From contig CAJTDN010000001.1 in NCBI GenBank assembly GCA_910574865.1, positions 310,001-374,000 on the forward strand: a DNA stretch of 64,000 bases, read 5' to 3'. This DNA comes from Lachnospiraceae bacterium (GTDB taxonomy: Bacteria > Bacillota > Clostridia > Lachnospirales > Lachnospiraceae). Below the pieces are notes generated by a model. The model did not search any database, was not told the DNA's origin, and worked only from the letters and a program-made list of their open reading frames with translations. The translations under genes and the position numbers were made by a program. Of the stretch, positions 16,818-54,789 are shown one piece after another (position 1 is the stretch's first letter; each line of letters opens with the position of its first letter).

Positions 16818-16838
16818 ATGCAGAAAGGATACATTCAT

Positions 16839-17621
16839 ATGGAAGATAAAAACCGAACGCCGTCACCCGTTTTGCTCCTAATCGTGTCAGGACTATACTT
16901 GGGACTCACCTTGATTCTGCGGTTTACCAGGGATGACATCATCATCCAGCAGGGAATACGCTTCTACCGCACGCTCAATGCCGCCGTCTTAATCGTTGGC
17001 GGATTTTGTACGGCCGCCCTTCTGGTTCATTTTCTGTTAAACTGGAACAAACAACAGAAGCGCAAACGCGCGCAGGACGAGGAAACCGCCAAGCAACAAG
17101 CCGCCCTGGAAGAAGAGGCCATGGAAAAAGAACGACATCGCGAGATTTTGTCCGTCTCGAAAAAGATGGACTCAATGCGGCTTAGGGAAGTGTTGTCCAC
17201 ATACGAGGCGGGAGCCTGGATCGAACTGGCCCAGCCCATTGCCAAAATAAGAATGCAGTTGGACATCATGGACGAATATCAGGAAAAACTGGTGCATCTG
17301 CTAGAAACCAACGGCGCGGACAGCCTTTCCAACACCAACGAGGTCCTCGACCAGGTGGAACAATACCTTTGCAAGAACGTGCGAAAGGTCCTGAATTACA
17401 TGGACGTCGCGGACGAGGACAATGAGCGGGACGTGGAACAAGTAAGCTTACGCCTCACCGCTTGTCACGAAGAAGGGCAAAAGCAGCTGCAGCAAGTGCA
17501 GGAATTTCTCTTTGCCCTGGCGGAATTTTTGAACAAGCAGGGGGACGATGACAATAGCATGGATTTGCTGAACATTTACAAGTCCACGATTCTTTCATCC
17601 ATTCAGGATGAATCATTATGA
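16839..17621 (+). CDS. Membrane-anchored coiled-coil protein
   Basis: Unrecognised protein of about 260 residues. Two membrane segments occur near the N-terminus (VLLLIVSGLYLGLTLIL and AAVLIVGGFCTAALLVHFLL), then a charged coiled-coil stretch rich in Lys, Glu and Ala, then a helical C-terminal half. The start at 16839 is favoured by AAAGGA 8 bases ahead and by the -10 box touching the other ATG at 16818. The layout (two TM plus helical tail next to a VWA gene) recalls XpaC-type proteins of TelA/VWA clusters, but no motif proves this. A structured repeat begins 2 bases after its stop. Confidence 0.8.
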   Translation: MEDKNRTPSPVLLLIVSGLYLGLTLILRFTRDDIIIQQGIRFYRTLNAAVLIVGGFCTAALLVHFLLNWNKQQKRKRAQDEETAKQQAALEEEAMEKERHREILSVSKKMDSMRLREVLSTYEAGAWIELAQPIAKIRMQLDIMDEYQEKLVHLLETNGADSLSNTNEVLDQVEQYLCKNVRKVLNYMDVADEDNERDVEQVSLRLTACHEEGQKQLQQVQEFLFALAEFLNKQGDDDNSMDLLNIYKSTILSSIQDESL

Positions 17622-17622
17622 C

Positions 17623-17810
17623 GATACCAGGGTCGAAAGGTCATGCGTTTCATGCTTGCATGAAAAAGCATGACTCCTCGACCCGCAAAACACCGAAAAG
17701 CAGCCATTTTTCATAGAAAAATGAGCGGATTTGAGGTGTTTAAGGATTGCGAGAGCACGTAGTGCGGAGCAATCCGTGGGTATCATGGGGTCAAAATGCC
17801 TTTTGACCCT
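17623..17810 (+). repeat. Family B branched RNA-like repeat, copy 1
   Basis: Element of about 190 bases between two genes of an operon. Outer stem GATACC (17623-17628) with GGTATC (17779-17784). Inside are an arm starting GGGTCGAAAGG, an arm CACC...GGTG holding CATTTTTC-ATA-GAAAAATG, and an arm GGATTGC...GCAATCC holding GCAC-GTA-GTGC. It ends with hairpin GGGTCAAAA/TTTTGACCC. The copy at 54484-54671 (minus) keeps each stem with changed pairs. Confidence 0.8.
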
Positions 17811-17827
17811 ACATCATCATTAACATT

Positions 17828-17844
17828 GGCGCGAAAAACGCGCC
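17828..17844 (+). promoter_or_regulatory. Hairpin at ribosome site of VWA gene
   Basis: GGCGCG-AAAAA-CGCGCC is a tight stem-loop ending 6 bases before AGGAGG of the VWA lipoprotein gene. It may tune translation or protect a processed end. Confidence 0.45.
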
Positions 17845-17859
17845 GAAAAGGAGGAAATC

Positions 17860-19554
17860 ATGTTTGTACGAAAAAGAAAAACGTTGCGGGTTCTTGCCAT
17901 TCTCGCGTCTTCCGTCCTGCTATTGGCCGGATGTGGGGGAGACGGACCGGTACGAACCGACCGTGATAACGGGACTTTAAACTACGAAGACGCGACCACG
18001 GAAATAGACTCCATGTTAAAGAAAGTCCGTGTTTCCACCGTATCCAAGCCAAACCTGGACATTTACTCTGACGACCTTTCCGAGGCGGAAGCCTTGGCGG
18101 ATATTGACACCTTCCCCCTGACGGTGGAAGGAAACGGGGAAATCAACATCGAAATTGCGGCGGCGACCGAGCTCTCCGCCGAGGCTCCCGATGACTGGAT
18201 TAACATCGTGGCACAGAATTTTAACAAATCCGGCCAGACGGTGAACGGAAAAAGGGTCACCGTTTCCGTCCGCAAAATCACCTCCGGGGAGGTGGTCACC
18301 TACATAACCGCCGATGCCTATCACCCCGAAGTATACATTCCGTCCAACGCCGCCTGGGGCATGATGCTGAAGTCCTCCGGCATTGGCGTGGAGACCCTTT
18401 CCGAGCGGATTGCGGGCAACACTGCCGGCATGCTGATTAAGAGCGACGTTTATGACACTTTTCTGGAAAAATACAAAGAAGCCACCGTGTCCAACGTATT
18501 GGAGGCCACGCTGGCCGGGGATTTGACTTTCGCCTACACCAACCCCTACACCTCCAGCACGGGCTTAAACATCCTGACCGCCATGCTGAATTCCTTTGAT
18601 CCTTCCAACCCGCTCTCGGACACGGCCCAGGGCAAGCTGTTGGAATACCAGCGGGAATCCCCGCCGGTGGCTTATACGACCGCGGTTCTGCGCAACCAGG
18701 CCTCAAAGGGAATCATCAACGCGATGGTCATGGAGGAACAAGCTTACATCAACACGCCGGAACTGGCAAACTATGAGTACATTCCTGCGGGAATCCGGCA
18801 TGATCACCCGGTGTACACTTTCGACTACTGTACCGACGAAGAACGTCAGGCCGCCGTCTTGTTCACGGACTACTGCCTGACGGACGAAAATCAGAAACTT
18901 GCCACCGAGAAAGGCTTCAACCGTCACGACGACTATGTTTCCCAGGATCCCGGGCTGGACGGAACGGGTTACCTTACGGCCCAGAAAGTCTGGAAGCAAA
19001 ACAAAAGCGGCGGGAAACCCATTATCGCCGTATTCGTGGCCGACGTTTCCGGATCCATGGCCGGGGAACCGTTAAACTCCCTGAAATCTTCTCTCGTGAG
19101 CAGCGCCGCCTACATCGGCTCGGAACATTACGTCGGCCTGGTAAGCTACGCCAACGACGTTACCATACACCTGCCCATCGCCCAGTTTGACGCCACCCAG
19201 AAAGCCTGCTTTACCGGAGAGGTGAAGAACCTGGCAGAAGGCGGCAGTACCGCCACCTATGACGCGGTTTTGGTAGCCCTCGACATGCTGGCCGAAAAGG
19301 CGAAGGAAGTTCCCGACGCCAAGCTGATGATGTTCGTCCTATCCGACGGGGAGCAAAACGAAGGCTACAGCTTAAGCCGAATCACGCCAATCGTGTCCGG
19401 CATGCAGGTTCCCATCTACACCATCAGTTACAACTATTACGATGAAAACGGCGAGCTGCAACGGCTTTCCGACATCAACGAGGCGGCTTCCCTAAATGCC
19501 ACCAGCGATGACATCGCGAACCAACTTCGGAACTTGTTCAACGCTTCGATTTAA
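17860..19554 (+). CDS. Lipoprotein with binding-protein-like and VWA domains
   Basis: Secreted lipoprotein of 564 residues, lipobox LLAGC at 21-25. Residues about 95-360 resemble a periplasmic-binding fold (INIVAQNFNKSG, PEVYIPSNAAWGM, a two-lobed pattern seen in SBP_bac_11-like proteins). Residues about 387-560 form a von Willebrand A domain with the metal site DVSGS (395-399), a conserved T near GGSTATYDAV and FVLSDGEQNEG. The joint architecture suggests surface capture of a ligand or partner protein with Mg-dependent binding. Function unknown. It is the last gene of the plus-strand cluster and ends before a bidirectional terminator. Confidence 0.9.
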   Translation: MFVRKRKTLRVLAILASSVLLLAGCGGDGPVRTDRDNGTLNYEDATTEIDSMLKKVRVSTVSKPNLDIYSDDLSEAEALADIDTFPLTVEGNGEINIEIAAATELSAEAPDDWINIVAQNFNKSGQTVNGKRVTVSVRKITSGEVVTYITADAYHPEVYIPSNAAWGMMLKSSGIGVETLSERIAGNTAGMLIKSDVYDTFLEKYKEATVSNVLEATLAGDLTFAYTNPYTSSTGLNILTAMLNSFDPSNPLSDTAQGKLLEYQRESPPVAYTTAVLRNQASKGIINAMVMEEQAYINTPELANYEYIPAGIRHDHPVYTFDYCTDEERQAAVLFTDYCLTDENQKLATEKGFNRHDDYVSQDPGLDGTGYLTAQKVWKQNKSGGKPIIAVFVADVSGSMAGEPLNSLKSSLVSSAAYIGSEHYVGLVSYANDVTIHLPIAQFDATQKACFTGEVKNLAEGGSTATYDAVLVALDMLAEKAKEVPDAKLMMFVLSDGEQNEGYSLSRITPIVSGMQVPIYTISYNYYDENGELQRLSDINEAASLNATSDDIANQLRNLFNASI

Positions 19555-48226: not shown

Positions 48227-48323
48227 CTACCTTCTCCTCCCGCTCATCGCCGTGTCTTGTCCATGATATTCCATGTATTGACATGTAGGCATACTTATAT
48301 AACCTTTTTACCCCGGTATCATC

Positions 48324-54374: not shown

Positions 54375-54478
54375 CCTCTCGCGCCAGAGCGCGGCCGCGT
54401 TAGCAGCCACTTTCCTTAAGCGCGAAGCGCACATCCCCCGGAGGGTTTTTACTTTATAGGACGCAATTTCCCATAAAG
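54375..54478 (+). repeat. Family E repeat, copy 2
   Basis: Shares CTCTCGCG, AGCAGCCA, GCGCGAAGCGC, CATCCCCCGGAGGGTT and CTTTATAGGA with 41878-41985. It abuts the family B element. Confidence 0.7.
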
Positions 54479-54483
54479 ATTAG

Positions 54484-54671
54484 AGCGTCAAAAGGTATTT
54501 TGACGCTCATGATACACGGATTACTCCGTGCTAACGCACTCCCGTAATCCTAAAACACCTCAAATCCGCTCATTTTTCTGCGAAAAATGGCTACTTTTCG
54601 GTGTTTTGCGCGTCCCAAAGTCATCCTTTTTCATGCAAGCATGAAACGCATGACCTTTTGGCGCTTGTATC
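54484..54671 (-). repeat. Family B branched RNA-like repeat, copy 2
   Basis: Minus-strand copy of 17623-17810. Outer stem GATACA/TGTATC replaces GATACC/GGTATC; arm GGATTAC/GTAATCC replaces GGATTGC/GCAATCC; inner GTGC/GCAC replaces GCAC/GTGC; last hairpin AGCGTCAAAA/TTTTGACGCT replaces GGGTCAAAA/TTTTGACCC. It lies downstream of the tRNA-Glu terminator. Confidence 0.8.
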
Positions 54672-54680
54672 CCATAAAGC

Positions 54681-54717: not shown

Positions 54718-54789
54718 TGACTCCCAGGGGAATCGAACCCCTGATTCCAGCGTGAGAGGCTAGCGTCTTAACCGCTTGACCAGGGAGCC
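54718..54789 (-). tRNA. tRNA-Glu(CTC)
   Basis: Acceptor stem GGCTCCC/GGGAGTC with discriminator A, D-arm GGTCAAGCGGTTAAGAC, anticodon loop CTCTCAC with CTC, T-loop GGGTTCGATTCC. CCA is not encoded. Confidence 0.95.

Follow-up and report, generated by a model that had tools for sequence, protein, structure and literature searches.

The MITEs QMITE1 and QMITE2 of Coxiella are described, in the available part of the report on them, as giving rise to sRNAs (PMC10969869). For the NEMIS/Correia repeats of Neisseria and the enterobacterial ERIC sequences, RNA structures were proposed to affect the processing or stability of adjoining transcripts, again according to the available part of the source (PMC2229807). 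A third described system is the RNA family Clostridiales-1 (Rfam RF01699), filed as an sRNA gene. The main text of Weinberg 2010 (PMC2864571), in the part available, names this family in a table row and is silent there on terminal repeats, target duplications and mobility. The window analysed here, a stretch of 64,000 nucleotides, holds two copies that match the Clostridiales-1 model as a whole and that show, in addition, the ends and flanks of a mobile element.

Identity and distribution of the element

The two copies lie in inverted orientation, copy 1 at 17623-17815 on the plus strand and copy 2 at 54478-54671 on the minus strand, with an identity of 85%. Both aligned with model positions 1-166 of 166 and exceeded the Rfam cut-off of 48 bits, copy 1 with 111.9 bits (match 17622-17785) and copy 2 with 107 bits (match 54510-54672); the model leaves out the right-end hairpin (17786-17811, plus strand) and the right terminal repeat. 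An earlier note, made from the letters of the window, had reported two inverted copies with paired stem differences and had considered them a perhaps undescribed ncRNA. Both copies are present and the paired changes quoted there were confirmed, with two corrections: the element is slightly longer than had been proposed, its last hairpin carrying the right terminal repeat, and in copy 2 the first hairpin has GCGCC instead of GCGTC as its left arm, which breaks one pair. The RNA had been described already, and the match to Clostridiales-1 removes its novelty, although RF01699 is not filed as a repeat class.

The predicted fold of copy 1 is branched. A closing stem P1 (5' strand 17623-17628, partner strand 17779-17784) is followed inwards by a long hairpin P2 (17630-17684), a hairpin P3 with conserved internal loops (17688-17741) and a hairpin P4 (17744-17775) of the form GGATTGC...GCAATCC, with a G/A-rich internal loop and covariation among its bases, all on the plus strand. 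The terminal inverted repeats, examined family-wide as well, are part of this structure: the left one (GATACCAGGGTCGAAAGG, 17623-17640) also supplies the 5' strands of stems P1 and P2 and the right one (CCTTTTGACCCTACATC, 17799-17815) forms one arm of the last hairpin. Copy 1 stands between two ORFs of the plus strand, an upstream one without Pfam match (16818-17621), which stops 1 nt ahead of it, and a downstream one with solute-binding and VWA domains (17860-19554). On the minus strand, a tRNA gene (54718-54789) has just after it a terminator-like hairpin and T run, recognised by eye, and copy 2 starts directly behind. A third, decayed left end, GATACCGGGGTAAAAAG, was seen at 48304-48320 on the minus strand; vestiges of the P2 hairpin come after it, and a reading frame lies downstream.

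Scoring of 150 of 247 candidates in the window's genome gave at least 79 copies above the Rfam cut-off and at least 99 matches in all. In a survey of 100 genomes of the family, each of a different genus and that of the window among them, up to 25 candidates were scored in each; 44 genomes had one or more matches above the cut-off, 55 had a match at E <= 0.001, and none of 14 control genomes had an RF01699 match. A search of a genome contig collection with a left-end pattern designed to pass over ordinary copies returned 41 stretches, 11 of them titled Lachnospiraceae and 15 more bearing genus names that we take to be Lachnospiraceae. Six of the 41 (Bradyrhizobium, two Mesorhizobium, Rhizobium, Rhodospirillaceae and Thermoplasmatota) were set aside as probable chance matches, their right end not being found, as was also the case for several gut stretches. 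The exact left-end pattern had no match in a viral contig collection and blastn of the element against plasmids gave none either; the same program matched it to eight unannotated faecal phage records with 60-90% identity. Head-to-tail tandems of two or three copies, some sharing parts, occur at L055 (1300-1750), L139 (665-1167) and L125, suggesting an origin by slippage or recombination between end repeats.

Mobility and the putative transposase partner

The element is almost certainly a MITE, and comparison between copies and genomes shows that it is mobile. It is 182 to 270 bp long in the 57 copies read, carries no transposase gene and is bounded by terminal inverted repeats of about 18 bp. 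Exact 7-bp duplications of the form (A/T)TNNNAT flank 20 of the 28 readable copies of the window's genome (79 given) and 16 of the 29 readable copies of other genera (44 given), with about 1.1 expected in either set from shuffled flank pairings; taken together, this amounts to 36 of 57 readable copies (123 given) against about 2 expected. Copy 2 has TTTATGG, in minus-strand reading, on each side (54471-54477 at its right end, 54672-54678 at its left end). The ATCATTA on both sides of copy 1 (17612-17618 and 17816-17822) is an imperfect and, on the left, probable duplication, four bases separating the left one from the element. At this one locus, an empty site was found in two congeners (G107 and G110), in which the flanking gene pair is adjacent without the element: the gap between matched pieces is 12 and 29 nt there versus 213 and 231 in the window.

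Genome G038 contains 213 end-like sites as compared with five for a reversed control pattern, and ten short derivatives of 68-128 bp were read there. Exact 7-bp duplications in register flank six of them and a seventh has six of seven positions; in two others the repeats match after a shift of one base, and L171 has none. The core is absent from seven of the ten (68-70 bp) and the P4 hairpin is kept in three. Derivatives devoid of the core have thus moved as well, so that transposition does not require it. Insertions are mostly intergenic: only 6 of 46 terminal-repeat copies lie inside an ORF of at least 150 codons, against 1766 of 2300 random positions at the same loci. At one G038 locus (L164, 1402-2451), an ORF resembling, by eye, an rsmH-type methyltransferase lies between two repeat ends.

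Shared ends and co-occurrence indicate that the partner of this MITE is very probably an element of IS1182 type. Four contigs of genome G067 stop inside a sequence that opens with a terminal repeat like that of the MITE, and the end derived from them has matches in 20 of 397 genomes of the family. Partner elements were read over their full length of about 1.84-2.0 kb in G338, G132 and G290, and in two pieces in G051. They carry one transposase, whose ORF is open in G338 and has an internal stop in G132 and G290, and their ends are GATGTTGGGGTCAAAAG, GATGTTAGGGTCAAAAC or GATGCTGGGGTCAAAA. One end in G051 is GATTAGAGCGTCAAAAGG, identical at 18 of 18 positions to the right terminal repeat of copy 2 (54478-54495, listed on the plus strand). 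The part of the transposase that was read has DUF772 and DDE_Tnp_1_6 domains; its best NCBIfam model is IS1182 (NF033551), with 113.1 bits for a 490-residue part against a cut-off of 270, so it belongs to a distant group designated here 'IS1182-type' and not to IS1182 itself. One clear target duplication, ATGACAT (7 bp), is present on both sides of the G290 copy, and no matching 7-mers flank the G338 and G132 copies, two of the three read end to end.

Transposase relatives (E <= 1e-20) were found in only 4 of the 100 surveyed genomes, and all four are among the 13 genomes with at least 22 RF01699 hits (at most 25 scored per genome), for which the chance is about 2 in 10,000. The remaining nine copy-rich genomes had no match at this threshold, and two of them, G067 and G074, match the end of the partner element. 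The window's genome yielded no intact partner. Its single relative (C12, 6726-8196) is split over two frames, with 65% and 51% identity, and lies beside another repeat copy; its ends are GGGGTC-type versus GCGTC-type in the near-identical recent copies, which counts against it as their mover. Between paired ends, no transposase was seen in the window's genome, in the congeners G103, G106, G107 and G110, or among the places listed for G038, where MITEs, decayed copies and unrelated genes were encountered in its stead. Two candidates for insertion sequences were discarded: L091 was rejected on inspection, and the G111 contig ends proved to be the MITE itself as far as they could be read.

A second architecture was observed in 17 of the 79 copies of the window's genome, in which the closing stem is TAAAAGTC or near it, mostly preceded by TTTACTR. 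Several of these then carry a GTGTCGCC...GGCGACATGNNNGTTT hairpin, for which 22 matches were obtained, 12 with both ends; one of the 12 (L324) is without the core. The left junction is TTTAC in 11 of the 12 and TCTAC in one, the search pattern itself having required this motif with up to three mismatches. A direct-repeat test found no target duplication in the TTTAC-type copies (2.25 versus 2.09 in shuffles). Loci L319-L327, L331, L336 and L337, which combine TTTAC-type ends with another right hairpin, appear to represent a second dispersal route. Elements of the IS200/IS605 group insert without duplication, next to a fixed target at the left junction. The ends of the TTTAC-type copies recall this type of insertion.

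The RNA fold and its probable selection

Both the folding and the copy number of the element are far beyond chance. The minimum free energies of copies 1 and 2 are -91 kcal/mol (z -9.8) and -82 kcal/mol (z -9.1), and in neither case did any of 200 shuffled sequences fold as well. A covariance model built from 33 diverse aligned copies was searched against 70 sources, namely 69 loci and the window, with 87 matches that include fragments; at L145, two extra matches (1184-1213 and 1247-1276) concern the P4 part of the model alone and adjoin a full copy. Among the 87 matches, pairing is preserved in 95.7% of cells, changes on both sides occur in 26 of 28 pairs, and 454 cells are doubly changed versus 134 in shuffles, figures which lean upward because the structure had guided the alignment and related copies enter the count more than once. 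When pair partners were slid along the sequence, pairing fell to 50% or less.

Part of the compensatory signal reported in the earlier note, namely GGGTC/GACCC against GCGTC/GACGC, is present as claimed and falls in the transposon terminal repeats. All four arms could be read in 30 of the 79 copies, among 123, that had a readable left arm, and in all 30 they agree: 17 are of GGGTC type and 13 of GCGTC type, with none mixed. At least one arm is unreadable in the remaining 49, five of which show an odd letter in one arm. These 30 agreeing copies may reflect few evolutionary events. That the four arms change along with the terminal repeat would be expected of a MITE whose structure counts only as DNA, as a cruciform or as paired transposase-binding sites, with the RNA appearance as a by-product. 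Two other observations suit this explanation, as the minus strand is strongly structured too (mean z -8.5 versus -9.6 for the plus strand) and the energy gap between strands is largely compositional. The plus strand is indeed the more stable in 49 of 50 non-redundant copies, but this was abandoned as decisive proof once a shuffle control accounted for more than half of the gap, composition explaining -5.7 of the -9.5 kcal/mol excess.

However, P3 and P4 covary and neither is a terminal repeat, so that transposase binding at the ends leaves their covariation unexplained, and the movement of core-less derivatives likewise speaks against a structure that serves only as DNA. G-U pairs outnumber A-C mismatches by 39 to 17 in the 55 copies less than 90% alike and by 18 to 8 in the 26 copies less than 80% alike, and an excess of plus-strand stability persists in 42 of the 50 copies after subtraction of the shuffle control. 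Strand energy, G-U excess and covariation together lend moderate support to selection on the transcribed strand. An exclusive role as DNA is therefore considered unlikely in view of these arguments, and selection at the RNA level on the core of the element is the likely reading. Two further proposals of the earlier note have held: a mobile structured repeat, through the terminal repeats, the 7-bp duplications, the empty site and the matching ends of a transposase-bearing element, and a selected RNA structure, through strong covariation across genera and some stability excess of the plus strand after shuffle control.

The family could also consist of ordinary genes for trans-acting sRNAs, multiplied by duplication or recombination and not by transposition. 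Its Rfam type is 'Gene; sRNA', its fold is conserved across genera, tandem copies occur, and Weinberg 2010 (PMC2864571), in the part available, considers it likely to be RNA and unlikely to be cis-regulatory. The precise ends and the empty site argue against this explanation and the 7-bp duplications contradict it. In addition, a scan around copy 1 (17500-17900) revealed no terminator-like site and no promoter-like match on the plus strand, its two promoter-like matches both being on the minus strand, and multiplication of an sRNA gene is accordingly very improbable. The absence of both signals around copy 1 suggests that the RNA is probably read from a crossing host transcript. A cis-regulatory, riboswitch-like leader spread by transposition is equally improbable: among 38 intergenic copies, 27 have a downstream gene in the same orientation as the RNA, but in 11 it is oppositely oriented, and the family was judged probably not cis-regulatory in the available part of the 2010 text.

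Taken as a whole, a MITE with an IS1182-type partner and a selected RNA core is, in our judgement, a probable explanation of these data. A DDE transposase distantly related to IS1182 would recognise the terminal inverted repeats of about 18 bp in trans and insert the unit at A/T-rich, mostly intergenic (A/T)TNNNAT sites, creating the 7-bp duplications. Between the ends would lie the branched Clostridiales-1 RNA, a closing stem with three hairpins, probably read out of any host transcript that crosses the insertion. Its fold would be kept by selection, most likely as a structured spacer or processing element inside host transcripts that makes insertions tolerable, although this particular role is proposed tentatively. 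Somewhat more doubtful is the reading of Clostridiales-1 as a passenger RNA module that has been taken up by two or more unrelated mobile architectures, one with IS1182-type ends and 7-bp duplications and one with TTTAC-type ends without duplication. Selection would then preserve the fold because the RNA itself helps the element to persist or to multiply, for instance if it protects host transcripts against the insertion or influences transposition. If confirmed, this would mean that a single RNA core is carried by two kinds of mobile element.

Comparison with known systems

The RNA family itself has been known since 2010; what is new with respect to the literature searched is that the RF01699 family is mobile, as a MITE with an IS1182-type partner. 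No link between Clostridiales-1 or RF01699 and MITEs was encountered in that literature, which consisted mostly of titles and the beginnings of abstracts and leaves room for a remark in the 2010 supplement; a term search in the available part of the main text of PMC4081043 found no mention. On this view, an Rfam family without known role is cargo carried by a mobile repeat, and the type of transposase can be named. The presence and copy number of RF01699 could then be read as a history of transposition instead of gene regulation. This raises the question of why a MITE should retain a branched RNA structure in dozens of genera when derivatives lacking it still move.

Family IS1182 is the closest described relative on the enzyme side, by its DUF772 and DDE_Tnp_1_6 domains and best NCBIfam model, from which the partner differs by its distance (113 versus 270 bits); its single clear duplication, ATGACAT, has 7 bp. 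The NEMIS/Correia and ERIC sequences resemble the present element as small mobile repeats with RNA structures, likened here by description and not by sequence, whereas the partner in the present case is IS1182-type. The likeness to QMITE1 and QMITE2 of Coxiella extends, in the available part of PMC10969869, to comparable length for a MITE, repeats of 7-9 bp and a structured transcript, with sRNAs arising from the Coxiella element. The fold drawn for QMITE2 lies outside this comparison; unlike the Coxiella elements as compared here, the present one has a core that is branched and covaries across many genera.
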